This document shows positions 25,784 through 42,336 of a stretch of 64,000 bases of DNA, in pieces. Positions within the stretch are counted from its first letter, which is position 1, and the number at the start of each line of letters is the position of its first letter. Below the pieces are notes generated by a model that searched no databases, was not told the DNA's origin, and saw nothing but the letters and a program-made list of their open reading frames with translations. The DNA is taken from contig JAUNPS010000029.1 of the NCBI GenBank assembly GCA_030536575.1, positions 1 through 64,000 of the forward strand. Direction: 5' to 3'. The position numbers and the translations under genes were made by a program. The DNA comes from Eubacteriales bacterium (GTDB lineage Bacteria > Bacillota > Clostridia > Lachnospirales > Lachnospiraceae).

Positions 25784-27028
25784 CTATTCTACTTCCGGCC
25801 CCAAAAGCTCCAGCCTCGGCTCCCTTTCCACCACCTCAGCCAACGCCTCCGAAACCAGAATCTCCTCCAATTCCAACGTACTCCGAATCTTCACAATCCG
25901 CAGCTTCTCCTTCTCACACCCCCTCAAACACTTCACGGCAACCTTCACCGCCTCCGCCTCATCCCTGGCAACCAGCGGAATCTTACAATCCTCCAAAGCC
26001 TTCACCGCAATCGCATTCGCATACATCGCCTGAAAATCCAGCTGCCGAACCACCTTCTCCGTCACCACATCAAAGAGCCCCAGCCCAATCCCATTCCCAT
26101 GCGACGCCTCCGAAACATCCAGAAGCACCATCTTACCAATCTCCGGCACCTCCAGCACAAACTCCTTCAGAATACTGCTCCTCCCAAGGATATTCGGGTC
26201 GAACCCTGCCCCGGAAATATCCTTTCCAATGGCCTCCACCACCAGTACGTCGATCTTCGGAATCATCAAAAGCGGCATATTCTTCTTCGCCTGCCGAACC
26301 AGCTCCACTTCCCGCTCGATCAGGCTCTCTGCCGGAACCAGCTCCACCTGGCTTGTCTCGTCATACGCATTTTCCAGAACCGCCACGCCAAATCCCACCG
26401 GCGCCTGCCCCAGGATCATCCGCGCCGCCTCCTTGATCGTCTCCCCAAAACAGGAAAACTCCGCTTCATGCATTGCAGAACACCCTTTCCGGTTTCCCAA
26501 GCCGATCACCAGCATCTTGCACAGCCCGCTCTGAATATCCGAAACGAAATCCGTATGAAGCTTCACCCGGTTAATCGGCACGATCAAGTCCGCTTCCAGC
26601 GCCGTCCGGTCAAAAAACACCTCAATCCCGGACGCCGTCTCACCCAGCTTCACAACCTCGGTTTTCGTAACCACCGGCACGCCCATCGCGGCTTCCGTAA
26701 TCCCATAACTCTCCAAAACCGCGCGCTGTCCTTCCTCTGTCCCGCCGCCATGGCTTCCCATCGCCGAAACGATAAACGGCTTCGCGCCCAGCTTTTCCAG
26801 CTCCTCCAGCGTCGTCTTCACGATCAGCGGCAGATTCCGGATTCCCCGGCTGCCTACGCCCACCGCCACACGCATGCCCGGCTTCACCTTCCCGGCAATT
26901 TCCGGCTTTCCAAACTCCTTTCGGATTTCCCCGGCAATGTCCGTCAAAACCGGACGTGCAAACTTCTGGCGTACCCGGTACATCCGCGGCAGCTTCATTG
27001 CCTCATCTTCCGGCAGTAAAAGAGACAT
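25784..27028 (-). CDS. LarA-like DUF2088 protein, possible 2-hydroxyacid racemase
   Basis: This 414-residue protein has the N-terminal DUF2088 domain of the nickel-dependent lactate racemase superfamily. Visible are VAVGVGSRGIRNLP, the SAMGSHGGGTEEGQ motif (about residues 90-103) and a C-terminal part with MVLLDVSEASHGNG. LarA uses a nickel-pincer cofactor, but no lar maturation genes are seen here and the binding lysine cannot be confirmed by eye. It is the last gene of the catabolic operon, 14 bases after the aconitase-X small subunit. A D-2-hydroxyacid dehydrogenase in the same operon supports a 2-hydroxy acid substrate. The activity is inferred. Confidence 0.72.
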   Translation of the reverse strand: MSLLLPEDEAMKLPRMYRVRQKFARPVLTDIAGEIRKEFGKPEIAGKVKPGMRVAVGVGSRGIRNLPLIVKTTLEELEKLGAKPFIVSAMGSHGGGTEEGQRAVLESYGITEAAMGVPVVTKTEVVKLGETASGIEVFFDRTALEADLIVPINRVKLHTDFVSDIQSGLCKMLVIGLGNRKGCSAMHEAEFSCFGETIKEAARMILGQAPVGFGVAVLENAYDETSQVELVPAESLIEREVELVRQAKKNMPLLMIPKIDVLVVEAIGKDISGAGFDPNILGRSSILKEFVLEVPEIGKMVLLDVSEASHGNGIGLGLFDVVTEKVVRQLDFQAMYANAIAVKALEDCKIPLVARDEAEAVKVAVKCLRGCEKEKLRIVKIRSTLELEEILVSEALAEVVEREPRLELLGPEVE

Positions 27029-27042
27029 TTAAACGCCCTCCC

Positions 27043-27450
27043 TTATTCCAGAATTTCAATGGTTCCCTCATCAGCATTGATCCGAATCCGGTCGCCGTCC
27101 TTCACCGTCTGATAAAACGCCGGCTCCACCTTATCCACCATCGGGATATCCATAATGATCGCACTGGAAACCAGCACCGTCTCCGGATACTGGATGATCA
27201 TCCCTTTCGGCGCATTCCCGCGCTTATTCAGCTGGAACAGCCCGTCTGCCTGCACGACCGAACTCCCTTTTCCGCTGGGGAAAATCAGAATCTTTCCCGC
27301 AATGCTTTTCCCTTCCAGCGCATGGGCCGGTTCGATCACCACGCCGGTCTCCGGCTCGATCAGATAAAACATGATATCATCCCCGGACAGCACGGCTTCT
27401 CCTTCCGCGACTCCTTCGGATATTTTATGGCATTGAAACACTTTTCCCAT
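27043..27450 (-). CDS. Aconitase X swivel (small) subunit, DUF126
   Basis: This 135-residue protein is the swivelling domain of an AcnX dehydratase, made as a separate subunit. Visible landmarks are GDDIMFYLIEPETGVV, FPSGKGSSV (about residues 59-67) and a KGMIIQYPE segment. The ATG at 27450 shares one base with the stop of the large-subunit gene (TGATG), and GGAGG lies seven bases before it. The two subunits are thus translationally coupled. Confidence 0.87.
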   Translation of the reverse strand: MGKVFQCHKISEGVAEGEAVLSGDDIMFYLIEPETGVVIEPAHALEGKSIAGKILIFPSGKGSSVVQADGLFQLNKRGNAPKGMIIQYPETVLVSSAIIMDIPMVDKVEPAFYQTVKDGDRIRINADEGTIEILE

Positions 27451-28655
27451 CACACTACCTCCCCGGTCAACGCAGCTTCGATACAGGTGTCCAGATCCCG
27501 GATAACGAAATCAATGCCCCGCCGTTTCGGATAATACGCACATTTCGGCGATTCCGTCACGCCAACCTTTCCTTTCAGGTGCCGCCAGCAGGGCTGATCC
27601 GGACAGGTATCCGGCACAAGAAAACCGCCCGCTTCCTCGATCACTTCCGTGATTCCCATCCGATCCGCCAGCTCCTTCACATGGTAAGAAACCAGAATCC
27701 ACATTTCCTTCTTTAATTTTTTCCCACGCACGCGCTCGGCGATATGCGCCGCCTGATCCAGCGTAAAATGCGGGCATCCAAACATTGCAAAATCGATTTC
27801 CCGGTTTCCTTTCAGAGAAATCTCTTCCAGGATTTCTTCCAGATCCTGATTCGTGATGACAACCTTCCGCTTCGGCTCTTTGCCGCCAAAAGCCTGCTCT
27901 AACGTCTGTGCCTCCGGCGTAAAGCCCACAATATGATACATTCCGTAAGCGCCGGACGTATTTAACTGCGCGCCCAGGTTCGTCAGAGCCTCTTTTCCAA
28001 TATGCTTCGGAAGCCCGGTGAAAACCGGAATTCCGCTTCCAATCTTCTTTCCGCAGTAGCCCAGCAGATGATATTCAAAATCCGATTTCATATCCGCCTG
28101 GACTTCTACCAGAATATCCCCATACCGGTTCTCGTCCAGCAGAAGGCCATATTCCGGCACAACGCCGGTGATCGCCGCGCAAAGCGCACTGTTCGCGCCC
28201 TCCCGGTTACTCCTAGCCCCCCAGACCGCATTCACATAGGGCGTGGCGCTTGACTCGGAAAATGCACAGATTTCCCCGAAATTCGGTACATTCGTCGCCA
28301 CATAAGGCGTACAGTTGTACGTCAATGTCGCCCCAAGCGCCTTATAAGCATTATGCGTTCTCTGCATCAAATCCGCGTCTTCGTCGGACACCATCCGCCG
28401 CTCCTTAAAAAAGGACAGGCAGAATCCCGGATTCACGGTCGGAGATACCTTACAGTGCGCCCCGCCCGCCAGCAATTTTTCCGCAAACCACAGATCCGCA
28501 TCCTGATTGCTGAGCGCCACATGGGCCCGCGTAATCGGCACCATCCGCTTCGCGTCAAAGGACTCCCCGATGGCTGCCTGGATTTTCATTGCATAGGCAG
28601 CCCCGGTTCCATATTTTCCATGGAGCATATCCATCTCTTCTCTTGTTAATTCCAT
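27450..28655 (-). CDS. Aconitase X catalytic (large) subunit, DUF521
   Basis: This 401-residue protein is the catalytic part of an AcnX enzyme, a dehydratase. Characterised bacterial members dehydrate cis-3-hydroxy-L-proline, and archaeal members act on mevalonate 5-phosphate. Seen are the N-terminal MHGKYG-like stretch (MLHGKYGTGAAYAM), NPGFCLSFF, and TYNCTPYVATNVPNFGE with its cysteine. A SSATPYVNAVWGARSNREG motif, a central CPHFT and a late CPDQPCW follow. An upstream TTG is possible, but the ATG at 28655 has AGAGGAG seven bases ahead. It follows the flavoenzyme gene by 37 bases. Confidence 0.87.
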   Translation of the reverse strand: MELTREEMDMLHGKYGTGAAYAMKIQAAIGESFDAKRMVPITRAHVALSNQDADLWFAEKLLAGGAHCKVSPTVNPGFCLSFFKERRMVSDEDADLMQRTHNAYKALGATLTYNCTPYVATNVPNFGEICAFSESSATPYVNAVWGARSNREGANSALCAAITGVVPEYGLLLDENRYGDILVEVQADMKSDFEYHLLGYCGKKIGSGIPVFTGLPKHIGKEALTNLGAQLNTSGAYGMYHIVGFTPEAQTLEQAFGGKEPKRKVVITNQDLEEILEEISLKGNREIDFAMFGCPHFTLDQAAHIAERVRGKKLKKEMWILVSYHVKELADRMGITEVIEEAGGFLVPDTCPDQPCWRHLKGKVGVTESPKCAYYPKRRGIDFVIRDLDTCIEAALTGEVV

Positions 28656-28692
28656 TCGACTACTCCTCTCCAATCCCAGGGGATTCCCCGCT

Positions 28693-30633
28693 TTATAAGC
28701 TTACCGCCGCGTCATAGCCGCCGTGAACCGCACCCAGAATCTGTCCCATATGGTCGCAGTCCCCGATCTTCCGAAAATCGTCCGCCGTATCCCGGAAGCC
28801 CTCCGCTTCTTCGCTCAGGGGCAGATAACCCGTGGCATAGATCACCGTATCCGCCAAAAGCGTCTGCTGCGTTCCATCGGGAAGCGCCACCCGAACGCCG
28901 GACTCCTCCACTTCCAGACAGCGTGTCGAGCGCAGAACGGTAAGATTCGGGTATTTTTCAATCTCAAGCTGGAGGGTACGGAAATGAACATACGGCGCAT
29001 CCTGTGCGATTTCCGGACGCATTTCCACAACAGTCACCTGTTTTCCCTGCATAGCCAGTTCGATCGCATCTTCCACGCCGACCAGGCCTCCTCCAATCAT
29101 AACCACCTGCTGGCCAATCTGCCCTTCCTTTTCGTAGATTTCACTGGCCGGCATCGCCTTTTCCAGTCCGGGAATCGGCGGAATGAGCGGTCTGGAGCCA
29201 ATCGCGCAGATCACCGCGTCGAAATCTTCCTTCCCAATCATCTCCGGCGTTGCTTCTATATTATAGTGCACCGGAATCTTTCTCTTCTCCACTCTCCGGA
29301 TCAGCACATCCCGGAATTTCTCCACATCCTTTTTAAAGGACGGACGGCAGGCCAGATTCAGCGCCCCGCCAAGCTGGCCGCTCTTTTCATAAATCTCTAC
29401 CTGGTGTCCGAGGTCATGGGCCTTGATCGCCGCCTCCATACCCGCGGGGCCGCCCCCGATGATGCAGACACGCTTCGGCTTCGGTTCCTCCCGCAGCAAA
29501 AGGGCCTCGTATTCTCTCCCCCGCTCCGGATTGACCGAACAGCGCATTGCTCCGATCGGCATTTTTACATAAGGAACAAAACTCTGGCTGATACAGTAAG
29601 AACACCGGATGCACGGCGTAATGTCATCCGCCCTGCCTTCCTTGATCTTTTTGGGAAGATCGGTATCCGCAATGATTCCTCTGGCAATCGCTACCATATC
29701 CGCTTTTCCGCTGGCAATGGTATCTTCCATCACCGCCGGGTCGTCCATTGCACCCACCACCGTAACCGGAATCGAAACAGCCTCCTTAATTTTCGCGGCG
29801 AAAGGCACATTCATCCCATGCGGCCGGAACTGACTGGGGTACATGCGAACCACGCCGTCTTTATTATGGAACGTCGAAGCGGATACATGGATCATATCTG
29901 CTTTTTGTTCCAGAATCTTCGCGACTTCCACCATATCGTCGATGGTCAGCCCGTTTCCATAAGCTTCCTCGCAGGAAATGCGGACATCCACCACGAAATC
30001 CTTTCCACAGACTTCCTTAATCCGTTCCAAAATCATCATCGTAAAGCGGCACCGGTTTTCAATGCTTCCGCCGTACTGATCCGTCCGCTGATTATTTAAC
30101 GGAGACAGAAACTGCGCCGGAAGCCAGCCATGTCCGGCATGTACCATCACAATGTCAATGCCGCCGCATTTCGCAACCAGCGCCCCATGTGCATAGGCGT
30201 CCACAATCTCCTGAATCATCGCCTCGTCCAGCTCATAAACCGGATTCTGATAAACCCCGTCTCCGGCGCTGGGCCCGTAAACCTTCCCCTCCGGAAGGTA
30301 TTTCGGATTTGCCCGCCGCCCCGAATGCACCAGTTCAATGGAAGCCAGCGCTCCATAGCGATGGATCCGATCCGTAAATTCCTTGATATTCGTCGCGCAG
30401 TTTTCATCATCCAGGCAGAAATTATCCGCATGGCACATGCCGGTCTTTCCATGCACCAGCACTTCCCCCAGGCACACGATTCCCGCGCCGCCCTGGGCTT
30501 TCTGGGCCACATAAGTCAGATTTTTCACGCTTGTCTGGATACTCGGCCCCATCGGCGCCGTCTCGATCCGGTTTTTCACGGTCAGATTTCCAATCTTCAG
30601 CGGCGTAAACAGCTTCATTTCATTCTTCTTCAT
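28693..30633 (-). CDS. Fe-S flavoenzyme, dienoyl-CoA reductase / old yellow enzyme type
   Basis: Residues 1-360 of this 646-residue protein form an FMN TIM barrel (LFTPLKIGNLTVKNRI; HGWLPAQFLSPLNNQR near 166; a YGGSIENR motif). A cysteine cluster CIRCSYC with a further cysteine in MRCSVNP (about 345-370) should hold a 4Fe-4S cluster. An FAD/NAD half follows with GGGPAGMEAA and a second GGGLVGVEDAIELA. Relatives include 2,4-dienoyl-CoA reductase, BaiCD/BaiH, trimethylamine dehydrogenase and N-methylproline demethylases. It overlaps the last ATPase gene by 14 bases. It may reduce an enoate or remove an N-methyl group; the substrate is unknown. Confidence 0.88.
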   Translation of the reverse strand: MKKNEMKLFTPLKIGNLTVKNRIETAPMGPSIQTSVKNLTYVAQKAQGGAGIVCLGEVLVHGKTGMCHADNFCLDDENCATNIKEFTDRIHRYGALASIELVHSGRRANPKYLPEGKVYGPSAGDGVYQNPVYELDEAMIQEIVDAYAHGALVAKCGGIDIVMVHAGHGWLPAQFLSPLNNQRTDQYGGSIENRCRFTMMILERIKEVCGKDFVVDVRISCEEAYGNGLTIDDMVEVAKILEQKADMIHVSASTFHNKDGVVRMYPSQFRPHGMNVPFAAKIKEAVSIPVTVVGAMDDPAVMEDTIASGKADMVAIARGIIADTDLPKKIKEGRADDITPCIRCSYCISQSFVPYVKMPIGAMRCSVNPERGREYEALLLREEPKPKRVCIIGGGPAGMEAAIKAHDLGHQVEIYEKSGQLGGALNLACRPSFKKDVEKFRDVLIRRVEKRKIPVHYNIEATPEMIGKEDFDAVICAIGSRPLIPPIPGLEKAMPASEIYEKEGQIGQQVVMIGGGLVGVEDAIELAMQGKQVTVVEMRPEIAQDAPYVHFRTLQLEIEKYPNLTVLRSTRCLEVEESGVRVALPDGTQQTLLADTVIYATGYLPLSEEAEGFRDTADDFRKIGDCDHMGQILGAVHGGYDAAVSL

Positions 30634-31615
30634 GTTCTCCTCCCTGCTCTCCTTTTCCCTGCCTGTGGCAGCTTACAAAATGTCCCGGTTCCGCCTCGAT
30701 GCGTTCCGGTACGCATTCCTTACACGCTTCGGCAGCAAATTTGCATCTTGGATGGAACGGACAGCCAGACGGCATATGCGACAAATCCGGCACGGTTCCT
30801 TCAATCACTTTCAGTTCTTCGTCTTCGGTCTGCAGCGTGGGAATGCACTCCATCAGCCCTTTCGTGTACGGATGAAGAGGATTCTTAAAAATACTCCTGG
30901 TATCGCCTTCCTCCACAACGCGCCCGCCGTAAAAGACCGCAATCCGGGTCGCCACATTCGCCACAACGCCTAGGTCATGGGTCACGATCACTACGCTGGT
31001 TCCAAGCTCCTCCCGGATGTTATTCAGGATACCGAGAATCTGCGCCTGGATCGTTACGTCCAGGGCCGTCGTCGGCTCATCCGCCAGCAGAAGTTCCGGC
31101 TCGCAGGAAAGCGCCATGGCGATCATCACCCGCTGGCACATTCCCCCGGAAAGCTGATGCGGATAACTCTTCATCCGCTCCTCCGGGTCCGGAATCCCCA
31201 CCAGCCGCAAAAGCCGGACCGCTTCCTCTCTGGCAACTTCTTTCCGAAGCTTTTTATGCTTCACAATCATTTCCACAATCTGGTTTCCCACTTTAATCAC
31301 CGGGTCCAGGCTGCTCATCGGGTCCTGAAAGATCATCGCGATCCGGTTCCCGCGGATATGGTTAAATTCCTTCTCATTCTTTCCCAGAATATTTTCCCCG
31401 TGGAAGAGGATCTGTCCGTCGATGATCGCCGGAGGCGTCTCCACCAGGTTCAGAATGCAGGACAGCGTGACGCTCTTTCCGCATCCGGATTCGCCGACGA
31501 TCCCCAGCGTCTCCCCTTTGTCCACATACAGGTTCGCGTCATTGACCGCATGGACGTTTCCGGCCTTTGAAGGGAATTCTACTTTTAAATGCTGGATCTC
31601 CAATAAATGTTCCAT
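30620..31615 (-). CDS. Dipeptide/oligopeptide ABC transporter ATP-binding protein (DppD type)
   Basis: This 331-residue protein has Walker A GESGCGKS, signature [13 protein letters not shown] and Walker [13 protein letters not shown]. The C-terminal extension has the [10 protein letters not shown] cysteine motif typical of the peptide/nickel subfamily. GGGAGG precedes the ATG. It pairs with the OppF-type ATPase at 32459 and completes a five-part importer. Confidence 0.93.
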
Positions 31616-31633
31616 CGTGGATTCCTCCCTTCC

Positions 31634-32458
31634 CTAATTTTCCCGCAGCTTCGGGTCAAGCACGTCCCGCAGCCCGTCTCCCAAAAGGTTAAACGCCAGC
31701 GTCGTCAGCGTGATCATCAGGCCTCCGAAACAGGCCACCCACGGCGCCTGAAACAGCACATCCTTGCCTTCATTGATCACGGCTCCCCAGGAGGGTGTGG
31801 GCGGCGCGATCCCCAGCCCCAGAAATCCCAGGGAAGATTCCGCCATGATACAGCCGCCGATCGTAGAGGACAGCGTAATAAAGATCTGCGGCAATGCATT
31901 GGGAATCACATGGCGGAAAATAATATAAGCATTGCCCGCGCCCATGGTCTGGGAAGCCCGGATGAACGTCCGCTCCCGGATCGACAGCACTTCACTCCGC
32001 GCGATCCGGTAAAAGTTCGGGATCACCGGAATGCCGATAGCCAGGCACATATTAAACTCCGTTTTTCCAAAGGAAATCGCGATGATCATCGACAGCAGAA
32101 TCGGCGGGAACGACATCATGATATCCATCAGACGTCCCACGAAAAAATCCAGACACCCCCGGAAGTACCCGCACAGAAGGCCGATCGCCGTTCCGGACAG
32201 CAGCGCGATCAGAACCGATATAAACGAAACCTTTATGGAAATCCGCGCGCCGTAGATCAGCCTTGTCCAGACATCCTTCCCATAGGCGTCCGTTCCCATG
32301 ATGTGTTTCAGGGAAGGCGGATTCAGCATTTCGCTCAAACTGTTCGCCGCGTAATCATACGGGGTCAGGATCGGGGCCGCTACCGCCAGGAAAACCATGA
32401 TCAGAATGATGACTGCCCCGGCCACGATCATTTTATTGTGCAAAAGTCGTTTCAGCAT
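31634..32458 (-). CDS. Dipeptide/oligopeptide ABC transporter permease (DppC type)
   Basis: This 274-residue protein begins with a membrane helix near residues 10-30. A short external part reads HIMGTDAYGKDVWTRLIYGARIS, a DppC/OppC hallmark. A BPD_transp_1 domain follows, with an EAA-type loop in the IRASQTMGAGNAYI segment. Its ATG directly follows the stop of the OppF-type gene, with the ribosome site inside that gene. Confidence 0.94.
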   Translation of the reverse strand: MLKRLLHNKMIVAGAVIILIMVFLAVAAPILTPYDYAANSLSEMLNPPSLKHIMGTDAYGKDVWTRLIYGARISIKVSFISVLIALLSGTAIGLLCGYFRGCLDFFVGRLMDIMMSFPPILLSMIIAISFGKTEFNMCLAIGIPVIPNFYRIARSEVLSIRERTFIRASQTMGAGNAYIIFRHVIPNALPQIFITLSSTIGGCIMAESSLGFLGLGIAPPTPSWGAVINEGKDVLFQAPWVACFGGLMITLTTLAFNLLGDGLRDVLDPKLREN

Positions 32459-33487
32459 TTACGCTTCCCCCTTCCCCACGCTGTTTCGGCGTCCGGCCAG
32501 CTTCAGCTCCAGCGTATCGTATTTATGACAGGCTACCTGATGGCCATTTCCAATATCCGTCAGTTTTGGCTCTTTATATTTACAGTCCTCCGAAGCATAG
32601 GGACAGCGCGTATGGAAAATACAGCCGCCCGGCACATCGAAAAGACTGGGAACATCCCCTTTCAGCGCGTCCATCTGAATCTTATCGTCCGGGTCCGGCA
32701 CCGGAACGGCGGACAGCAGCGCATAGGTATACGGGTGCCGGCAGTTGGAAAACAGCTCTTCCTTTGGCGCGATCTCCACAATATGCCCGAAATACATGAC
32801 CCCAATCGTATCCGATACATACTTTACCACCGACAGATTATGGGAAATGAACAGATACGTCAGGCTCAGGTCTTTCTGAAGACGGCCAAGCAGGTTCAAA
32901 ATCTGCGCCTGCATGGACACATCCAGCGCGGAAACCGCCTCGTCGCAGATCACAAACTCCGGATTCAGCGCCAGGCTCCGGGCAATGCTGACCCGCTGTC
33001 TCTGGCCTCCGGAAAGCTGATGGGGCATGCGTGTCAGCAGGTTCGTCGGAATCCCAACCAGGCTGCACAGTTCTTCCACGCGCTCCCGCTTCTGTTCTTT
33101 CGTCCCGTATTTATGAATATCCAGCGGCTCCCGGATGATCTCCTCGATATCCAGATAAGGGTCCAGGGACTCATAAGGGTCCTGGAAAATCACCTGCATT
33201 TCCCGCCGTACATTCCGAAGCCTTGCTCCGGATAAATGGCTGATATTCTCGCCGCGATAGAAAACCTGTCCTTCCGTCGGTTTATAGAGGGACAAGATCA
33301 GGCGTGACAGCGTGCTCTTCCCGCAGCCGGATTCGCCCACAAGCCCGAACGTCTCGCCTCTGCGGATACAAAAGGATACGCCGTCGACAGCTTTGACAAA
33401 GGATTTTTTCCGCATGGCGTTGGGAAACCATTTTTTTACGTCTTTTACTTCCAGTATAATTTCTCTTTTCTCTTCTTCCTGCTTCAT
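32459..33487 (-). CDS. Dipeptide/oligopeptide ABC transporter ATP-binding protein (OppF type)
   Basis: This 342-residue protein has Walker [10 protein letters not shown], signature LSGGQRQRVSIAR and Walker B FVICDEAVSALD. The C-terminal cysteine motif CIFHTRCPYA is followed by CKYKEPKL. The open frame reaches 33556 into the previous gene, but the ATG at 33487 has an AAGGGA site and starts the family N-terminus. It lies between the two permease genes. Confidence 0.93.
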   Translation of the reverse strand: MKQEEEKREIILEVKDVKKWFPNAMRKKSFVKAVDGVSFCIRRGETFGLVGESGCGKSTLSRLILSLYKPTEGQVFYRGENISHLSGARLRNVRREMQVIFQDPYESLDPYLDIEEIIREPLDIHKYGTKEQKRERVEELCSLVGIPTNLLTRMPHQLSGGQRQRVSIARSLALNPEFVICDEAVSALDVSMQAQILNLLGRLQKDLSLTYLFISHNLSVVKYVSDTIGVMYFGHIVEIAPKEELFSNCRHPYTYALLSAVPVPDPDDKIQMDALKGDVPSLFDVPGGCIFHTRCPYASEDCKYKEPKLTDIGNGHQVACHKYDTLELKLAGRRNSVGKGEA

Positions 33488-33518
33488 AGAAATCCCTTCC
33501 CCTTTCCGGTCCGCATCG

Positions 33519-34466
33519 TTAGTTTGCCGAATCCTGAACCCGGATTCGGGGGTCAAAAACGCCGTACAGAATGTCCGTCACCAGCATACACAGAATCATG
33601 AACACGGCCAGGAAAATCGCCGTACCCTGGATCACCGCGTAATCTCTGGCATTGATGGCGTCCACCAGAAGTTTGCCGACTCCCGGACGGGAGAAGACGC
33701 TTTCCGTCACCACCGCGCCGCCCAGATACCCCGCAAAGGTTCCGCCTACCACCGTGATGATGGGCGTCAGGGCGTTCCGAAGGGCATGGCCGAAGATCAC
33801 CGCGCTTTTTGACAGGCCTTTGGCCTTACAGACTTTGATAAAATTATCGCCCAGAATCTTCAGCATCGCCGTCCGGGTCGTTCTGGCGATGGATGAAGCG
33901 GAACCGATTCCTACGACGATGACCGGGCCAATCAGGCCCAGCCACCGTTTATCCGCATCCAGATTAATGGAAATAACCGGTATCCACTTCAGCTTTACGC
34001 CGAAAATCACAATAAACACTAATCCGATGAAAAAGGAAGGCATGGACATTAAGACGGTGTTGGCCCCCATCACAAAAACATCGAAGGGGCTGCCGCGTTT
34101 CAAAGCCGCCGCAATACCTGCCGTAACCCCCAGAAGAACCGCGAACAGCACGCCAAAGACTGTCAATTCCAGCGTATAAGGCAGCTTCGCCAGAATCATG
34201 TCCATGACCGGCTCATTTCCCTGCATGGAGGTTCCCAGATCTCCCCGAAGCGCATTGCCGATCGTCCGTCCGAGCTGTACGATCATCGGATCATTGTATC
34301 CGTGCTCTTCTTTGTACTGCTCGATCTGTTCGTCGCTGGCATTGGCCCCGAACTTCACCGTCACCGGATCGCCTGGAATCGAGCGGATGATAAAGAAGAC
34401 GACGACCATGCTTCCCAGGATCGTGGGGATGGCAAATAGTAACCGCTTAAAGATATACCTTTTCAT
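33519..34466 (-). CDS. Dipeptide/oligopeptide ABC transporter permease (DppB type)
   Basis: This 315-residue protein has the N-terminal helix FAIPTILGSMVVVFFIIRS and the RSIPGDPVTVKFG segment typical of DppB/OppB. About six membrane segments follow. The binding-protein gene ends 24 bases upstream. The C-terminus (VFDPRIRV) fits the family. Confidence 0.94.
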   Translation of the reverse strand: MKRYIFKRLLFAIPTILGSMVVVFFIIRSIPGDPVTVKFGANASDEQIEQYKEEHGYNDPMIVQLGRTIGNALRGDLGTSMQGNEPVMDMILAKLPYTLELTVFGVLFAVLLGVTAGIAAALKRGSPFDVFVMGANTVLMSMPSFFIGLVFIVIFGVKLKWIPVISINLDADKRWLGLIGPVIVVGIGSASSIARTTRTAMLKILGDNFIKVCKAKGLSKSAVIFGHALRNALTPIITVVGGTFAGYLGGAVVTESVFSRPGVGKLLVDAINARDYAVIQGTAIFLAVFMILCMLVTDILYGVFDPRIRVQDSAN

Positions 34467-34490: not shown

Positions 34491-36026
34491 TTATTCCGTG
34501 ATGTCAACCAGATTCCATTTGATATAATTGCGTACATCCCGCTCCACATTCGTCACCGTATTGCGGGTTAAGGTCGTGCTCATATACTCTGCACATACGA
34601 TCGAAGGCATATCTTCCGTCAGGATATCCTGCGCTTTTCCGTACCATTCGGTCTTTTCTTCCAGATCAGCGGTCGCTTCCGCATTTTCCAGACATTCGTC
34701 ATATTCCGGGTTCTGGTACATATCCCAGTTTCTGCCCGGCGCCTGATCGCTTGCGAAGCACGGGAGCCAGTCGCTTCCCATAAAGCCGTCGCCGTTAATC
34801 ATAAACCACATCTGGGCTTCCCCTGCACGTACTTTTTCAATATAGGTCGCATATTCGGCCAGATCCAGTTCCATATTTACGCCCACAGCCGCCAGATACT
34901 GCTGGATAACCATCAGAGGGCCTTTGGACATGGTGTCATTGACTGCGGAGCAGGTTACGGTAAAGCCATCCGGATAACCCGCTTCGGCCAGCATTTCCTT
35001 ACATTTTTCCGGATCATAGGTCGGGGTCAGGGTTGCTTTGGAATACATGCAGTCCGAAGGCACATAGCCGGAGGGCAGCTTCTGATTTCCCTGGAAATAC
35101 GCGTCGATCAGTTCTTCGTAATTGATCGCGTAGGACAGTGCCTGTCTCACTTCTTTGTTGCTGAGGATTTCATCAGTACAGTTCATGCCCAGGTAATAGT
35201 TCTGGTTATCGGAAATCTGGGTCAGCGTTCCCACTTCGGAATCCTGGTATTTCTTGATGTTGTTCGCATCGCTTAATCCGGTGATATCGATCTCTCCGGC
35301 GTCAAAAGCATTTACGGCATTGATTTCATCAGCCAGCAGCGTCACCGTAATTTTATCGACTTTCGCAGTCTCGCCCCAGTAATCTTCGAATTTCTTTACG
35401 GTATAGCTTTCCGCAATTTTCCCGGATTCATATTCGAATGCGCCGGTTCCCACCGGGGTCTGCCCCAATCCGGTTCCAAGCTCCTCGCCCGCTTTTTTCG
35501 AGGTTACGAAAGTATACCAGGATGCGAAATCCATCAGAACGTTCACGTCCGGCTCTTTCAGGTTCAAGACAAAGGTATACGGGTCGGAAGTATCCATGGA
35601 TTCAATGTTGGAAACCTTTGCTTTTTCCGGAGCGGTCACCGCGCCCACGTCCGGATCCGACAGGCGTTCCAGGCTGTAAGCCACATCTTCGGAGGTCATC
35701 TCGCCATAGCCTGCATGGAACTGCACGCCCTGTCTCAGGTGGAAGGTGTACGTCTTATAATCCTCGGAAACTTCATAGGACTCTGCCAGATACGGCTGAA
35801 TTTCTTTGTTCTCATCCAGCGTCAGCAGGGTCTCGTAGATCGCCGTCCCCACCTTACATCCGCTGGCATCCGACCACTGTGCATAGTCGAAAGAAGCTTT
35901 TTCCCAGTTCGTCGCTACTTTGAGAACCTTCTCGCTTTCCGCGGATACGTTCAGGGCGGACATCACCAATCCTACCGTCATGGCTGCTGCTGTGATGAGT
36001 GCTGCCAGTTTGTTCCTCTTTTTCAT
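34491..36026 (-). CDS. Dipeptide/oligopeptide-type substrate-binding protein
   Basis: This 511-residue family 5 binding protein captures the substrate of the adjacent importer. It has a signal peptide (about residues 1-30, cleavage near NVSA-ES) followed by the usual YETLLTLDE and YTFHLRQGVQFHAG motifs. The open frame reaches 36170, but the ATG at 36026 has AAGGAG ahead and starts the signal sequence. There is no lipobox cysteine, as in the other binding protein of this window. Family 5 proteins bind peptides, nickel chelates, glycosides and other compounds, so the ligand is open. Confidence 0.92.
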   Translation of the reverse strand: MKKRNKLAALITAAAMTVGLVMSALNVSAESEKVLKVATNWEKASFDYAQWSDASGCKVGTAIYETLLTLDENKEIQPYLAESYEVSEDYKTYTFHLRQGVQFHAGYGEMTSEDVAYSLERLSDPDVGAVTAPEKAKVSNIESMDTSDPYTFVLNLKEPDVNVLMDFASWYTFVTSKKAGEELGTGLGQTPVGTGAFEYESGKIAESYTVKKFEDYWGETAKVDKITVTLLADEINAVNAFDAGEIDITGLSDANNIKKYQDSEVGTLTQISDNQNYYLGMNCTDEILSNKEVRQALSYAINYEELIDAYFQGNQKLPSGYVPSDCMYSKATLTPTYDPEKCKEMLAEAGYPDGFTVTCSAVNDTMSKGPLMVIQQYLAAVGVNMELDLAEYATYIEKVRAGEAQMWFMINGDGFMGSDWLPCFASDQAPGRNWDMYQNPEYDECLENAEATADLEEKTEWYGKAQDILTEDMPSIVCAEYMSTTLTRNTVTNVERDVRNYIKWNLVDITE

Positions 36027-36093
36027 AATATCTACTCCTTTTTTCTTTATTTTAATATCAGCGCCGGATAGGCTTTCTGATACTAATTCGAAT

Positions 36094-37716
36094 TTATATC
36101 TTTTTGTAAACCGTTTTCCCGCCGCATACCGTTTCCAGTACCACCGTGTCTTTGATCTCCTTCGGGTCAATCGTAAAGAGATCCCGGTCCAAAATCTGAA
36201 AATCCGCGTATTTTCCCGGCTCCAGAGAGCCTAAAGCAGCTTCCGCGTGATTCTGGTACGCCGCGTTTCTTGTATAAAAACAGATCGCGTCTTTTAAATC
36301 CAATGCAAGTTCCGGCCGGCAAAGCTTTCCTTCCCGGTTTTCCCGGTTCACCAGATAATGAAGGCCCCAGATCCAGTTCATCGGCAGAGCCGGGCCGTCC
36401 GAGCCCTGGGAAATCCTCATGCCCATCTGAAGCGGCGTTTTTAAATCGGTTCCTCCTCCAAAGACATAACCGCCCACTGCCTGGGCCGCCAGCTCGATGC
36501 CATTGGCCGCGCAGTCCGCAATGTTTTGCGTTACCAATGCGCTGCCATGAAGTAAAAAGTGCCGAAGATCCCTTCCCGGAAGCTGCCTCTCCGCCTCCGT
36601 CAGCGCCGCAACCGCCGCGTCAATCCCTTTTCCTCCGGTCAGATGGATGCCCATCTGCCATCCCCGCCGGTGCAGCTCCAGGATGGTTTTTCTCATATCC
36701 GCGATCTGCTCCTGGTCTGTTTCTCCGGGAAACATACAGTAACCGCTTTTCCCGTCCCTGCTCCAGCCGTCGTCTCCAAAAATTTTTACCGTATCGGCGC
36801 GCACCCAGTCCCGGTTTTGAAACTTTGGAAGCTCCATTTCTTCCAGTCCTCCCAGAATCGCATCGCTGGACTGGACGCCGTTTTTCCCGGCCAACAGGTT
36901 CAGAAACACTCTGGCAGTCAGCCCTTCCTTCTCGGAAAGACGCTCATAAGCGCGAATCGCCGGCTGCCCGAAGGTTCCGAAACAGAGATCGTCTCCGCCG
37001 ATTCCCACAATATCCGTGTGGGACGTAATTCCATAACTGTTCAGTTTTCTCTGCATGCGCCGGATGCAGGCTTCCATTTCTTCCTCGGAAAGGTGATACG
37101 CCGCCCGGCCGATCCGCGCCTGGGTGCCAAAATCCGTGAAAAGCCCGGTAGGGGAACCGTCCGGAAACCGGTACATGGTTCCTTCCTCCTTCGAAAAGAT
37201 GGTGTCTTTTGTGATTCCTGCCAATTCCAGCGCTCTGGCGCTTACCAGAATGCGGTGCAGCCCTCCGTCATGCAGGATCACCGGATGGCCTTTCGCACCC
37301 TCCGCGATATCCCGCCAGTCCGGAAGCCGCTTTTCTTCCCGCCACTCCCGGATACCGTCCAGCTTAAAGCCCCAGCCGATCATCCAGGCATCTTCCGGCA
37401 AATGATTTGCCTTTTCCGCAAGCAGCCCGTTCAGCTCTGCAAGATTCCCCGCGTCTTCCGGCTCGCATGTCACAAATTCCGGCGCCATAGAAAGTCCCGC
37501 ATAGGCCGCATGGATATGGGAATCGAACGTCCCCGGAAGCACCAGCCGTCCTTCCAGCGAAACGGTTTCGGTTTCCTTCCCACGCCATTTTTCCGCTTCC
37601 TCTTCGCTGCCGCAAAAAAGAATTCTGCCGTCTTTTACCGCCATAGCCTGGACAAAATCAAACGTTTCGTTTACAGTCGCAATTTTCCCGTTTTTATAGA
37701 TCGTATCTGCTGCCAT
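36094..37716 (-). CDS. YtcJ-like amidohydrolase
   Basis: This 540-residue protein of the amidohydrolase 3 family contains metal-dependent deacylases and related hydrolases. Seen are the FDSHIHAAYAG metal motif (about residues 64-74), ILHDGGLHRI, and a late SQGSDGPALP with the catalytic aspartate. The C-terminal ALGSLEPGKYADFQIL closes the beta domain. No signal peptide is present, so it acts in the cytoplasm on what the importer brings in. It lies between the aminotransferase and the binding-protein gene. Confidence 0.87.
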   Translation of the reverse strand: MAADTIYKNGKIATVNETFDFVQAMAVKDGRILFCGSEEEAEKWRGKETETVSLEGRLVLPGTFDSHIHAAYAGLSMAPEFVTCEPEDAGNLAELNGLLAEKANHLPEDAWMIGWGFKLDGIREWREEKRLPDWRDIAEGAKGHPVILHDGGLHRILVSARALELAGITKDTIFSKEEGTMYRFPDGSPTGLFTDFGTQARIGRAAYHLSEEEMEACIRRMQRKLNSYGITSHTDIVGIGGDDLCFGTFGQPAIRAYERLSEKEGLTARVFLNLLAGKNGVQSSDAILGGLEEMELPKFQNRDWVRADTVKIFGDDGWSRDGKSGYCMFPGETDQEQIADMRKTILELHRRGWQMGIHLTGGKGIDAAVAALTEAERQLPGRDLRHFLLHGSALVTQNIADCAANGIELAAQAVGGYVFGGGTDLKTPLQMGMRISQGSDGPALPMNWIWGLHYLVNRENREGKLCRPELALDLKDAICFYTRNAAYQNHAEAALGSLEPGKYADFQILDRDLFTIDPKEIKDTVVLETVCGGKTVYKKI

Positions 37717-37750
37717 ATGCCCTCCCGAAAGGTCTGCCTGCAGTCTTCTT

Positions 37751-38827
37751 TTACTGCATTTCGTTTACAATCGCTTTTAACGCTGCCACAACCTTCTCAT
37801 TCTGCTCTGGCGTCCCAATGGTAATACGCAGATGCGGGAAATACCCTGCCACATAAATTTTTCGTTCTTCCAGCTTTTGTGCCAGGACTCCATTATTCAT
37901 CCCCGTCTTTATGTAGACAAAATTTGCCTTCGATGGAAAGACCTCCCAGCCAATCTCCCCAAGCTCTTTTGCGTAATACGCCCTGCCTTCCGCCACATTG
38001 GCGATACTCTTTTTCCGATATTCCTCGTCGTCCAGCGCCGCCAGCGCTCCAGCCATCCCGATTCGGTTAATGCTGAACACATTCTCCGCTTTCATCAGTT
38101 CCTTCTGTACCGCTTCCGAAGAAAGCGCATAGCCGATCCGCGCGCCCGCCATTCCGTACAATTTCGAAAACGTCTGCAAAATAATCAGATTTTCATATTC
38201 CGGAATCAAATCCGCCCCACTCCGGTACGCCTCGTCATCCGCAAAAGCAATGTAGGCTTCATCCAGAACCACCAGAATTTCTTCCGGAACCCGCTTCAGA
38301 AACGCTTCGATCTCTTCGTGGGTGTAGGCGCATCCGGACGGATTGTTCGGATTGCAGAGGAAAATAATTTTTGTTTTTTCCGTAACCGCCTGCAGAATCC
38401 CTTCCAGATCAAAAAATCCATTCTCCAGCAGCGGCAGCTTCACCGCCGCCCCGCCGTTCTGTTCCGTCGTGGACGCATAAGCCCCAAACGTCGGCACACA
38501 AAAAATCGTCTCGTCTCCCGGACAGATGAACGTATCACCCACCAGCTTAATAACCGCGCTCGCACCGTTTTCAATCGTCACATTGGACGGTTTTAAGCCA
38601 TATTTTTCCGCCAGTTTCGCCCGAAGCGTATAGCCATAGGCATCCGGATAACGGTAAGCCTTTCCCGCTTCTTCCGCCATAGCCTTTGCCGCCAGCGGAG
38701 AAGTTCCCAGCGCATTTTCGTTAAAATCCAGCCGGATTTCTTCCCCGTCCGGATCGATGTACATCACGTCGTCCGCCAGCCCGTTTTCCGGCAGTCCCTG
38801 TAAATAAGGTTTTGCCAACTGTTTCAT
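37751..38827 (-). CDS. HisC-like class I/II aminotransferase
   Basis: This 358-residue PLP enzyme resembles histidinol-phosphate aminotransferase. Landmarks are LDFNENALGTSP, ENGASAVIKL, FLCNPNNPSG, VLDEAYIAF and the cofactor lysine in TFSKLYGMAG (about residue 225). No other histidine gene is present, so a catabolic or broad amino acid role is more likely than histidine synthesis. An ATG at 38833 touches the ribosome site; the ATG at 38827 has proper spacing. It lies 15 bases after the dehydrogenase gene. Confidence 0.88.
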   Translation of the reverse strand: MKQLAKPYLQGLPENGLADDVMYIDPDGEEIRLDFNENALGTSPLAAKAMAEEAGKAYRYPDAYGYTLRAKLAEKYGLKPSNVTIENGASAVIKLVGDTFICPGDETIFCVPTFGAYASTTEQNGGAAVKLPLLENGFFDLEGILQAVTEKTKIIFLCNPNNPSGCAYTHEEIEAFLKRVPEEILVVLDEAYIAFADDEAYRSGADLIPEYENLIILQTFSKLYGMAGARIGYALSSEAVQKELMKAENVFSINRIGMAGALAALDDEEYRKKSIANVAEGRAYYAKELGEIGWEVFPSKANFVYIKTGMNNGVLAQKLEERKIYVAGYFPHLRITIGTPEQNEKVVAALKAIVNEMQ

Positions 38828-38842
38828 AACCATTCCTTCTTT

Positions 38843-39853
38843 CTATCCGTTGATGACGCTCTTTGGCGTTCCCCCAAGCCATGCTTTGAGATTTTCCACC
38901 ATCACGTCCACTTCTTTGAATCTCGCCGAATCCGGCAGCCACGCGATATGCGGCGTCACCACCACATTTTCCAGGTCGAACAGGGGCACATGGCCTTTCG
39001 GCGGTTCCTGCCGGATCACATCCAGCCCCGCCCCATAGACTTTTCCGGACTGCAGGGCTTCGATCAGGTCTTCCTCCTGGATCAGCGCTCCCCGCGCCGT
39101 ATTGATCAGAATCACACCGTCTTTCATCTTCGCAATCGTCTCTTTGCAGATCATCCCTTCGCTTTCCCGGTTTGCCGGGGCATGCAGGGAAATCACATCG
39201 CTGCGCCCCAGAAGTTCGTCCAACGATACCTGTTCGATTCCGTCGTATTCCGGCCCGTTTTTCTTATGGCGGCTATAGGCGATCACGTTCATGCCGAACG
39301 CCTGGGCCATTCTCGCAAAGCGAAGGCCAATGTGGCCAAGACCGATGACGCCTACGGTTTTTCCTTCCAGATCAATCTGCGGCGTATAAATTTTCGTAAA
39401 ATCGTCCAGGCTGGATTTCTCATGAAATTCCGTCGTTTTCAGACGGTCGCTGTGCATCCCGGCCCGGTGGCATACTTCCAGGAGCAATGCAAAAGCGTAC
39501 TGGGCAATCGTATATTCTCCGTAAACCGTATTCGTCACCACCAATCCATGCTCCCTGGACGGCCCAAAATCCACGTCCGCAAATCCATGGGCCGGAACCG
39601 CCAGATATTTCAGCTTCGGATGCCGGGCCAGATATGCTTCGGACAGAATCGTCGAATTAATGTAAACGCCCAGAGCAATTTCCGCATCCTCCAGATATCC
39701 GCTGATCTCTTCCGGTGAAAAGAAATGATCCTCATAAACAATCTGATAGGAAATCTCCGGCAATTCTTTCATCCGCTGTTCCCACCGCTCCACCACCTGT
39801 TCCCGGGGCAGAAGTCCGCCTGCCGGATCTCCTTGAAAAATAACTGCTTTCAT
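38843..39853 (-). CDS. D-isomer-specific 2-hydroxyacid dehydrogenase
   Basis: This 336-residue NAD(P)-dependent enzyme interconverts a 2-hydroxy acid and its 2-oxo acid. It has the Rossmann motif GVIGLGHIG (about residues 164-172). The catalytic residues are an arginine in NTARGALIQ, a glutamate in DVIRQEPP and a histidine in TPHIAW. It is flanked by the phosphotriesterase-like and aminotransferase genes. With the aminotransferase it could link a 2-hydroxy acid to an amino acid through the oxo acid. Confidence 0.92.
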   Translation of the reverse strand: MKAVIFQGDPAGGLLPREQVVERWEQRMKELPEISYQIVYEDHFFSPEEISGYLEDAEIALGVYINSTILSEAYLARHPKLKYLAVPAHGFADVDFGPSREHGLVVTNTVYGEYTIAQYAFALLLEVCHRAGMHSDRLKTTEFHEKSSLDDFTKIYTPQIDLEGKTVGVIGLGHIGLRFARMAQAFGMNVIAYSRHKKNGPEYDGIEQVSLDELLGRSDVISLHAPANRESEGMICKETIAKMKDGVILINTARGALIQEEDLIEALQSGKVYGAGLDVIRQEPPKGHVPLFDLENVVVTPHIAWLPDSARFKEVDVMVENLKAWLGGTPKSVING

Positions 39854-39883
39854 ATGCTCCTCCTTTCCGCACAGGCCCGTTTT

Positions 39884-40966
39884 TTAGTAGGCCAGAATCC
39901 TCGCCGGGTTTCGAACGGTGATATCGCGAATCGCCGTATCCGCCACTTCTCCGTATTTCTTCAGCATTGGAATCGCGTATTTCGTCATTCGGCAATAGCC
40001 TTCCCCGCCGAACCTTCTGCACATGGTTTTCACACACAGGTCGGTTCCCATGACAATCTGTCTGCTCCAGCCTTCCGCAATAAGCTGTCTGACCCCAGCC
40101 AGGCGCATCCAGTCCGGAATCGGAACGCTTCCCTTGTTTTCCAGTCCAATGTCGCCGGATAAAACTTCTACCGACACATTCGCGCCAGCTTCCAGAATCT
40201 GATGCGCGCTGTCCAGATCCAGCCCCCAAAGTTCCGGGTACAGCAGCATTTCCTTTAAAGGACGCTTGACAGCCGTCCGGGTGTGGGCAATGACAATTTT
40301 CGTCGGATCCATCCCCTCTTCCAGCAGAATCTGAATGATTCTCGCCGGGTCACCGCCCGCGTCATAGCAGGGATGCACGGTAATGGACATCCCGGTATCC
40401 TTCGCCACCTGGCCTCCGGCGCGCAGGGCTCTCTCCTCCTGTTCGGAAAACTCTTCCAGGCCGATCTTGACGCATCCCGGTTTTACTCCTGTGCCGTCGA
40501 TGCCCTCTGTGATTTCTCCCATCATATGATTATAAAAATCCTTGATTTCCCAGTCCGCGAACTTTCCTTCCCAGGAAGACTGTACGTAAAATCCCGTGGC
40601 CGTTATCACATGGACACCCGTCTTCTCGGAAATCCGTTTTACCGCCGCCACATCCAGCCGGATCCCCGGAACGCTTAATTCCACCATGGCCTGTCCGCCG
40701 GATTCCTTATACTCCATCACCTCTCCGGTCATGGCCTCCTCGTCCTCCAGGTTCATCGCATCCAGAACCAGCGGGAAATTCCGCTTCAGGAGCCCGATGT
40801 TTTCCAGGGATACCGGGTCGTCGTAGTTGACCGGTAAATTCTGCGGCATAAAAGGCTTGCATTTCGCCCCCATATCCGCCCCATTGAACATGATGTGTTC
40901 GTGCATATCCGTGTAGCCAAGTTCCTCCGGCGCAATGTCGCCGCATACGGTTGTAATCTTTTTCAT
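39884..40966 (-). CDS. Phosphotriesterase-like metal hydrolase (lactonase/esterase family)
   Basis: This 360-residue TIM-barrel protein of the PTE family has the two-metal site HEHIMF (about residues 22-27), a bridging-lysine region VKIGLEE, and the histidines of VHPCYD and IVIAHTR. The aspartate of MGTDLC completes the site. Natural members are mostly lactonases or N-acyl/ester hydrolases rather than phosphotriesterases. AGGAGG lies close before the ATG. It is the first enzyme gene after the AraC regulator, separated from it by a hairpin with a T-run. Confidence 0.85.
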   Translation of the reverse strand: MKKITTVCGDIAPEELGYTDMHEHIMFNGADMGAKCKPFMPQNLPVNYDDPVSLENIGLLKRNFPLVLDAMNLEDEEAMTGEVMEYKESGGQAMVELSVPGIRLDVAAVKRISEKTGVHVITATGFYVQSSWEGKFADWEIKDFYNHMMGEITEGIDGTGVKPGCVKIGLEEFSEQEERALRAGGQVAKDTGMSITVHPCYDAGGDPARIIQILLEEGMDPTKIVIAHTRTAVKRPLKEMLLYPELWGLDLDSAHQILEAGANVSVEVLSGDIGLENKGSVPIPDWMRLAGVRQLIAEGWSRQIVMGTDLCVKTMCRRFGGEGYCRMTKYAIPMLKKYGEVADTAIRDITVRNPARILAY

Positions 40967-40988
40967 TTGCCTTCTCCTCCTTGAAATC

Positions 40989-41025
40989 TAAAAAAGGGCC
41001 TGCGTATCTTTCGATACACAAACCC
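40989..41025 (-). terminator. Terminator-like hairpin between araC-type gene and PTE-like gene
   Basis: A 13-pair stem with several G-T pairs, a GAAA loop and a following TTTTTT lies on the minus strand. It follows the AraC gene stop by 12 bases. Only about 20 bases separate its T-run from the next start codon, which leaves no room for a promoter, so some read-through or control is likely. Confidence 0.75.
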
Positions 41026-41037
41026 ATTTGTTTGAAT

Positions 41038-42336
41038 TCATTCTTTTTTCTCTAAAAGAAACTGCTTTGGTGACAATCCTGTCCGGTTTTTAAATACCGT
41101 GCAAAAGTAACTGGTACTGCTAAACCCGACCCTTTCCGCGATTTCATTCAGTGACAGATTCTCATTCTTTAACAGGCTCTTAGCCTTTTCGATTCGGTAA
41201 CCGGCCAGATACTGGCTGAAACTTACCTGATACAGACGGCGGAAGACCTGTCCGAAATGCTCCGGATTATAGTGGTTTAACTCTGCCAGCATGCCAATCC
41301 CGAATTCCGGCTGCGCGTAATACTGGCTGATGAACCGTTCGATCTGAAACCGCAGTCTCTCGTCAGCGGACATTTTCATTTTTTCCTGCTGGCGGCGGAT
41401 TTCTTCCAGGAGCTTTCCCAGAATACGGCGAATGTCTTCCAGGAACGAACAGCGCAGCACTTTCTCAAAGGATTCATAGAACAGACTGTCCAGTTGGTAG
41501 CTCTCTTCGTCGTGGATTTCGTAGGATTCCCGCAGGCGGTGGATCAGACCGCTTACGTGGAGCTTCACCTGATGCGGGTCCTGACAGGTTCTGGCCAGGT
41601 AGGCCGTCATGGCCTCGATTTCGTTTTCAACCTCTGTCCAGCTTCCATTCTCTACACTGGCGAGCAGTCCTGCCGTATACTCCTGAAATTTTTGCTTTTC
41701 AAAGTGCTGTTCCGGCTTTGGCTGCGTGTGACAGAAGGTGTAAGAGCCGCTCCCTTTGGTAAACAGATACGGAAATGCATTTTTACATTCTTCATAACAA
41801 TATGGGAAGCGCATCAGAGAATTACAGAAACCGCTGATCGTAATCGAAATCATCGTGTTCGTCTTCCGGCGGACATTTTCGATCATCTTTTCGGCCAGTT
41901 CTCCCAGCTTTTGATTCATGTTTTCTTCCGAAATGTCCCAGCGCTGTTTCATACAGAGAAACACGCCCAGAGTATCTGTCCCCTTATAGTTCGCGAGAAC
42001 GTGGCGGATTTCCATGGCATTCAGCGTCTCTTCCAGGTGATGCATAATCGTTCCCTTGATGGAATAGTTGTTAAAATCCGGAAAATGCTGGAAAATATCA
42101 ATATACTCATCCACACGGACAAGGAGCATATAATCCGGTAAGCTTTCCAGCCGCAGCAGTTTCAGAATCTGATCCAGATTTCCATACTGCAAGTTTCCAT
42201 AAATGACACTGTAACCGAATTCCTGGCAATACAGTTCATAATTTCCTTCCCCGTTAATCCGGTCAATGTTATACCGCCGGAACAGGTGCGGAATATCCGT
42301 CGTCGCTGCATCCGTTTTCTTCTGTATGGCTTCCAT
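41038..42336 (-). CDS. AraC family transcriptional regulator
   Basis: This 432-residue protein ends in an AraC-type double helix-turn-helix (about residues 335-430: YQVSFSQYLAGYRIEKAKSL, SLNEIAERVGFSSTSYF, then KNRTGLSPKQF). The long N-terminal part has no REC domain I can recognise and probably senses a ligand or mediates dimers. An ATG at 42363 has no ribosome site; the ATG at 42336 follows GGAAGGAG. It is placed directly above the catabolic operon and is the best candidate for its activator. Confidence 0.87.
   Translation of the reverse strand: MEAIQKKTDAATTDIPHLFRRYNIDRINGEGNYELYCQEFGYSVIYGNLQYGNLDQILKLLRLESLPDYMLLVRVDEYIDIFQHFPDFNNYSIKGTIMHHLEETLNAMEIRHVLANYKGTDTLGVFLCMKQRWDISEENMNQKLGELAEKMIENVRRKTNTMISITISGFCNSLMRFPYCYEECKNAFPYLFTKGSGSYTFCHTQPKPEQHFEKQKFQEYTAGLLASVENGSWTEVENEIEAMTAYLARTCQDPHQVKLHVSGLIHRLRESYEIHDEESYQLDSLFYESFEKVLRCSFLEDIRRILGKLLEEIRRQQEKMKMSADERLRFQIERFISQYYAQPEFGIGMLAELNHYNPEHFGQVFRRLYQVSFSQYLAGYRIEKAKSLLKNENLSLNEIAERVGFSSTSYFCTVFKNRTGLSPKQFLLEKKE

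Follow-up and report, generated by a model that had tools for sequence, protein, structure and literature searches.

What compound is handled by an operon that joins a peptide-type importer to hydrolases, oxidoreductases, a dehydratase and an isomerase is the question raised by a 64,000-nucleotide stretch of DNA from a Eubacteriales bacterium of the Lachnospiraceae (assembly GCA_030536575.1, contig JAUNPS010000029.1, positions 1 to 64,000), hereafter the window. An AraC-family regulator gene and thirteen co-directional open reading frames (ORFs) run along the minus strand from 42363 down to 25784, and we propose that the core of this operon is a two-enzyme unit formed by the iron-sulphur (Fe-S) dehydratase AcnX (genes 11 and 12) and a nickel-pincer isomerase of LarA group 22 (gene 13). 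Judged by sequence comparison, the gene neighbourhoods of relatives point to histidine and urocanate as the direction for a substrate search, rather than to hydroxyproline or N-methylproline. The reading that we favour, tentatively and at somewhat less than even confidence, is that AcnX forms urocanate from imidazole-lactate while the nickel enzyme sets the stereochemistry, and that the window extends this step to a route from histidine to imidazole-propionate. Its substrates, flux direction and order of steps are all inferred; what is observed is the gene content, the protein families, the recurrence of AcnX with LarA, the linkage to hut genes, the lack of a detected HutH in some relatives and the presence of genes for the nickel-pincer nucleotide (NPN) cofactor.

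The large AcnX subunit is encoded at 27450..28655 (PF04412, 439 bits; start at ATG 28655 in an ORF that opens at TTG 28673) and the small, or swivel, subunit at 27043..27453 (PF01989, 96 bits), followed by the isomerase gene at 25784..27028 (NF052515, 506 bits against a cut-off of 400). A pattern scan of a species-genome collection with the large subunit yielded 62 loci, comprising 61 bacterial loci (65–87% identity) and one archaeal outgroup (35%). Up to 21 kb was taken per locus, some sequences being ended by contig ends; the 62 loci amount to 1119 kb and the 31 control loci to 509 kb. By record title, the bacterial loci are mostly from Bacillota, besides which four are from Synergistaceae/Synergistales and two carry the label deltaproteobacteria. 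The genes for the two subunits are neighbours in all 62 loci, and a LarA gene accompanies AcnX in 42, being of group 22, as in the window, in 31 and of another LarA type in 11, never both. At 31 group-22 loci in further genomes of the class, AcnX was not seen, and the group-22 proteins tied to AcnX form a subgroup (53–72% identity) set apart from relatives without AcnX (35–42%). Through this repeated pairing, each family constrains the other, which gives a short list of substrates. The neighbour families of each LarA group are tabulated in Table S1 of PMC7583248, and an AcnX link may already stand there.

Genes of histidine degradation are found next to a part of these loci. HutU, HutI or FtcD genes occur in 7 of the 61 bacterial loci and a histidine-lyase-like gene in 8; either kind is present in 13, compared with 0 of 31 controls (Fisher p 0.0037). 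When 23 chosen genomes were searched, the HutH family (PF00221) was undetected in four (G779, G780, G793 and G794, with loci L068, L069, L118 and L121), all of which encode HutU and carry AcnX and LarA in or beside hut genes. HutH was thus undetected in 4/5 hut-linked genomes and in 0/18 others (p 0.00056), the fifth hut-linked genome (locus L066) having a single HutH-like lyase at 312 bits, under the cut-off of 539. Across 255 genomes of the family, HutU was present in 12 and the HutH family (E up to 1e-60) in 11; the only HutU-encoding genome without the latter, G555, has the AcnX large subunit, AcnX small subunit and HutU genes in a row on one strand. The simplest reading of genomes that encode HutU, lack a detected HutH and keep AcnX beside hut genes is that AcnX supplies the urocanate, and imidazole-lactate would be its most likely precursor because LarA partners are 2-hydroxy acid enzymes. 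The AcnX–LarA unit therefore suggests that urocanate can also be made in a way not recognised so far. In the AcnX tree, read without support values, the window protein groups with those of L065, L066, L068 and L069, three of which are hut-linked; the first three are 82–86% identical to it. Over the whole tree the hut labels are scattered, with 7 changes for 9 labelled tips against a shuffled mean of 8.6.

Several results weigh against the urocanate reading. The 23 genomes were picked after the hut contexts had been seen, and all four assemblies without detected HutH come from metagenomes or uncultured material. The G555 assembly has a completeness of 79% and no LarA gene on the 7.7-kb contig concerned, and its AcnX, 60% identical to that of the window, branches outside the main clade. 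The window operon itself contains no hut gene, and its genome encodes HutH (G000:C47:159854, 675 bits) as well as HutU, HutI and FtcD elsewhere, which makes a bypass needless there. We consequently do not class the window operon as a HutH replacement and propose only that its AcnX–LarA unit works as in the relatives. A gene for an Old Yellow Enzyme (OYE)-type reductase, required for the extension to imidazole-propionate, is found close to AcnX in just 2 of the 62 loci, and a 2-hydroxyacid dehydrogenase gene, present near 23 of 62, is weak evidence, as such genes also lie near 8 of 31 controls. For the same reason we gave little weight to the idea that this dehydrogenase stands in for LarA in loci without the latter, where it was found in 10 of 61, with an LDH2-type gene in 3 more and neither in 6. 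Moreover, 48 of the 61 bacterial loci show neither a hut nor a lyase gene.

This last count favours a rather unlikely alternative, in which the acid handled by AcnX and the nickel isomerase is phenyl-, hydroxyphenyl- or indole-lactate, or a range of aryl-lactates, with arylacrylates as products and the hut linkage limited to some lineages. Genes for indolepyruvate-type ferredoxin oxidoreductases in 4 of the 62 loci are in keeping with it (the one scanned, in L122, scored 562 bits, below the cut-off of 651), as is a putative phenylalanine aminotransferase that, together with HisC, is among the PDB neighbours of the window aminotransferase. The HutU-encoding genomes without detected HutH and the adjacency of AcnX to HutU are nevertheless specific to urocanate. 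Furthermore, the motifs around the active site are near-identical among the aligned AcnX members, whether the partner is LarA, a dehydrogenase or a lyase, and between hut-linked members and the others, which suggests a single substrate.

The main chemical doubt about urocanate formation comes from AcnX itself. Known AcnX enzymes abstract the proton adjacent to the carboxylate together with a 3-hydroxyl (PMC8184944), and imidazole-lactate carries a 2-hydroxyl, so this AcnX chemistry would be new. If the 3-hydroxy rule holds here, ground is gained by a different scheme, in which a 2,3-dihydroxy acid is dehydrated by AcnX to a 2-oxo acid, with the nickel enzyme acting as its C2 epimerase in the manner of sugar-acid catabolism and with an incidental hut linkage. 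Such a scheme would match both the known AcnX reaction and the epimerization of dihydroxy acids described for LarA (PMC11770544). It also suits the frequent neighbours of AcnX, which, in addition to the 2-hydroxyacid dehydrogenases, include tripartite ATP-independent periplasmic (TRAP) transporters in 30/62 loci and GntR regulators in 38/62, compared with 8/31 and 1/31 in the controls, a further pair of counts unfavourable to urocanate; IlvD-type genes are found in 3/62. It leaves the 13 hut or lyase neighbourhoods and the HutH-less genomes unexplained, however, and the IlvD rate is higher in the controls (3/31), so we regard it as improbable.

The residues of the window AcnX bear on two further substrates. 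C121, C300, C357, E140, S141, K377 and Y381 align with C110, C283, C342, E129, S130, K361 and Y365 of TkAcnX, the roles of which in the active site are described in PMC8184944. The window protein is thus a two-subunit AcnX, as are types IIa and IIb, with the three Cys, the Glu, the Ser, the Lys and the Tyr of the TkAcnX site, and differs from known AcnX proteins in lacking the Asp for the proline nitrogen and in having an apparently shortened phosphate-binding loop. Of 22 aligned rows, 20, the window among them, have Ala where AtAcnX has Asp203; one second-copy AcnX has Phe there, and the Asp is kept by L156 alone, which is a different AcnX. Window Ala53 aligns with TkAcnX Ala47, which is equated with Asp203 in PMC8184944; in a direct alignment with AtAcnX, the Asp faces a gap. 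The catabolism of hydroxyproline or proline-betaine, first suggested by the combination of AcnX with an OYE-type enzyme, is for this reason very improbable, and the hydroxyproline and N-methylproline substrates named in the initial annotation are unlikely, since the residue with which cis-3-hydroxyproline dehydratase holds the proline nitrogen, an Asp, lacks a counterpart in the window protein. NF051439, which models the fused enzyme, scores 218 bits with the large subunit and 47 bits with the small one, under its cut-off of 700, and no hydroxyproline enzyme was seen among the annotated neighbours, which are a subset of all neighbours; a regulator in L105 matches PrdR at 350 bits, below the cut-off of 795. 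On these residues, cut-offs and neighbours, we set the hydroxyproline and proline-betaine readings aside.

As for AcnX acting as a phosphomevalonate dehydratase, nothing in the neighbourhoods favours it, and the alignments of the phosphate-binding Gly48-Val49-Ser50 stretch disagree, as HMMER gaps all three residues and MAFFT gaps one and places the others opposite Leu and Ser; the loop would accordingly be shortened by three residues or by one. Types IIc to IIf are described as being without either set of landmark residues (PMC8184944, 2021), and the functions of these bacterial types were still unknown in 2023 (PMC10040528). The window AcnX resembles this class as a whole, no single type being assigned. 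A second AcnX pair, 55–59% identical to that of the window, lies near the main one in 7 of the 62 loci (L094, at 14741–15955, L095, L075, L089, L104, L109 and L125).

The partner of AcnX, gene 13, is a putative racemase or epimerase with an NPN cofactor. Its predicted structure has the LarA fold, and a search of PDB sequences returned LarA as the sole match, at an E value of only 0.3, for which reason the fold is given as predicted. H93, H158, K171 and H187 are invariant in 19 rows; H158, K171 and H187 have counterparts in LarA by that weak pairwise alignment (E 0.3), and H93 was matched by eye. Gene 13 is accordingly predicted to carry the cofactor and catalytic residues, namely two His, a Lys and the nickel-ligand His, and LarB, LarC and LarE, which supply the cofactor, are encoded in the window genome. 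The accessible LarA literature that we searched gives no function for group 22, the NCBIfam group being taken as the same as the published one.

Whether the remaining genes belong to the same pathway was judged from their own relatives. The initial annotation had viewed the operon as one conserved catabolic pathway, in which an imported conjugate is hydrolysed and its acid transaminated, oxidized or reduced, racemized and dehydrated. The importer and this sequence of hydroxy-acid reactions are retained here. The single conserved pathway is not, since none of the 62 AcnX loci contains, within the at most 21 kb examined, a phosphotriesterase (PTE), YtcJ or SBP_bac_5 gene, and neither the thirteen-gene set nor both modules at one locus was found in any relative examined; a HisC-like match was seen in 3 AcnX loci (4 under a looser rule). 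What recurs, separately, are two sub-modules, AcnX with LarA and an array of substrate-binding protein (SBP), DppB permease, ATPase, DppC permease, ATPase and PTE genes. By the test proposed in the initial annotation, conservation of gene order in relatives, the idea of a single whole-operon pathway fails in the genomes examined, and conservation is confined to these two sub-modules. PTE homologues (36–49% identity, E up to 1e-40) occur in 2 of 347 other genomes of the family (G675 and G550), in both as a tandem pair behind the importer genes in the order of the window. In G675, the cluster reads HutH-HutU-FtcD-HutI-importer-PTE-PTE-OYE; no hut gene was seen near the importer–PTE array of G550 in the 16 kb read. 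Relatives of the OYE-type gene differ in context: one (45% identity, locus L179) adjoins a HutH gene (679 bits) behind an AraC-like gene, and in L118 an OYE-type gene stands directly 3' of AcnX inside a hut cluster, while another close relative (46%, L178), which adds to the evidence against the proposed route, is not near hut genes. In three loci with a distant AcnX subfamily (L163, L164 and L166), OYE-like genes of 26–30% identity were found nearby.

These contexts also bear on the view that the operon is a composite, in which an importer–PTE–OYE part and the AcnX–LarA pair share a promoter and serve separate pathways. We consider this unlikely, if slightly less so than the other alternatives. 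In its favour, each module is found alone, both together in no relative examined, and AcnX was not detected at E 1e-30 in the 2 other genomes of the genus. Yet both modules have hut genes beside them elsewhere, each in different genomes, which suggests a common class of substrates.

Under the urocanate reading, the operon could be assembled into a pathway as follows. The importer, which is complete, consists of an SBP_bac_5 substrate-binding protein (gene 5, PF00496, 34491..36026), permeases of the DppB (gene 6, 33519..34466) and DppC (gene 8, 31634..32458) types and two Dpp/Opp ATPases with oligo_HPY domains (gene 7, 32459..33556, starting at TTG 33556 or ATG 33487, and gene 9, 30620..31615), all recognized by Pfam; it would bring in a histidine conjugate or peptide. 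This would be cleaved by either the PTE-like metallohydrolase (gene 1, 39884..40966; PF02126, 123 bits), which falls short of the organophosphate hydrolase equivalog (54 bits against a cut-off of 500), or the YtcJ-type amidohydrolase (gene 4, 36094..37716; PF07969, Amidohydro_3). The HisC-like aminotransferase (gene 3, 37751..38833; TIGR01141, 304 bits against 276.55, and Pfam class I/II aminotransferase) would convert histidine to imidazole-pyruvate, which the D-2-hydroxyacid dehydrogenase (gene 2, 38843..39853; PF02826 and PF00389, and PDB neighbours) would reduce to imidazole-lactate. The nickel enzyme would invert an aromatic 2-hydroxy acid at C2, imidazole-lactate being the likeliest, and AcnX would dehydrate one stereoisomer to urocanate, with no need for HutH. 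Finally, the OYE/FadH-type flavoenzyme (gene 10, 28693..30633; PF00724, Oxidored_FMN, and Pyr_redox_2), a candidate enoate (urocanate) reductase, may yield imidazole-propionate. The whole would constitute a reductive, Stickland-like branch of histidine metabolism free of coenzyme A (CoA); in the window genome, the urocanate may alternatively enter the Hut route.

The proposal has the urocanate intermediate and the imidazole-propionate product in common with the Hut (HutH-HutU-HutI) and HutH-UrdA pathways, and differs from them in that entry is from imidazole-lactate through AcnX rather than from histidine through HutH, and in that the reductase is of the OYE type rather than UrdA. Its step logic is that of the reductive Stickland pathway of aryl-lactates (FldABC), in which an amino acid is converted to a 2-oxo acid, a 2-hydroxy acid, an acrylate and a propionate. 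Unlike FldABC, the thirteen genes include no CoA-transferase or radical dehydratase, and AcnX would dehydrate without CoA. A Stickland-like HutH-UrdA route to imidazole-propionate has been described, and species were classed by whether they carry hutH and urdA (PMC13320830); an entry to urocanate independent of HutH would fall outside that scheme, and if the urocanate reading is true, predictions of histidine use or imidazole-propionate output based on hutH would miss some bacteria. The dehydration of 2-hydroxy acids would likewise gain a CoA-free, non-radical enzyme. In its full form, in which a simple 2-hydroxy acid (imidazole-lactate) is turned into an acrylate by the Fe-S enzyme AcnX without CoA or radicals, a nickel-pincer racemase supplies the stereoisomer, anaerobes enter urocanate independently of HutH and an OYE-type reductase completes a novel path from histidine to imidazole-propionate, the proposal is doubtful. 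In keeping with the initial annotation, no described pathway with the whole gene set was found in the literature searched. Among the matches listed, titles, openings of abstracts and term counts revealed no link of urocanate to AcnX, to a nickel-pincer enzyme or to the dehydration of imidazole-lactate, and imidazolelactate and urocanate appeared together only in PMC4192682, on root exudates.

The layout of the operon agrees largely with the initial annotation. The one-strand run of thirteen genes after AraC is borne out, with gaps, from AraC to gene 13, of 71, 30, 9, 34, -77, 24, -38, 0, 18, -14, 19, -4 and 14 bases. The gap of -77 before the binding-protein gene is the product of a TTG start; ATG 36026, picked for the ribosome-binding site AAAGGAG that precedes it, gives a gap of 67. 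Pfam and NCBIfam agree with the family names given there (PTE, 2-hydroxyacid dehydrogenase, HisC-like, YtcJ, Dpp importer, flavoenzyme, AcnX and LarA-like). The regulator gene (41038..42363; HTH_18 and HTH_AraC) had been placed from 42336, which is a later in-frame ATG; its ORF opens at 42363. The terminator proposed between AraC and gene 1 was recovered as a hairpin with a T-run (41025–40996), a possible leader attenuator, and a sequence scan located a second hairpin at the 3' end of the operon (25742..25774). Terminator-like sites in the region are no commoner than in shuffles (22 versus 21.6), nor are promoter-like sites in excess (14 versus 13.9), so what can be said of transcription rests on gene spacing and these two bounding hairpins. 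The first ends 30 bases ahead of gene 1, leaving no promoter space behind it, and transcription of the operon may be read-through from upstream under attenuation. No Rfam family, including a T-box or riboswitch as a clue to the substrate, reached the gathering score within window positions 20000–48000.

Some AcnX loci have neighbours that may belong to other pathways. AcnX stands beside histidine-lyase-like genes in L067, L074, L076, L078 and L080, the lyases of L067 and L080 scoring below the HutH cut-off. A BCCT betaine transporter gene in L067 and MttB-type genes in L067 and L080 make the catabolism of hercynine or ergothioneine, both betaines, possible at these two loci; for the window this was rejected, as it has no BCCT or MttB-type genes. 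In two Synergistota loci (L119 and L122), genes for a 2-hydroxyacid dehydrogenase, an indolepyruvate-type ferredoxin oxidoreductase and an acyl-CoA-ligase-type protein adjoin AcnX and the nickel isomerase, possibly as an oxidative branch for the same acid. MmgE/PrpD-type and URO-D-type genes occur in L121 (2577–8091) and L185 beside 2-hydroxyacid dehydrogenase, AcnX, LarA, FtcD and HutI genes. In the window, the region upstream of the operon (44219–51797) holds the RNA polymerase beta-prime gene (44219–47917) and then a 1285-amino-acid ORF, and a 3413-amino-acid ORF lies farther along (53749–63990).

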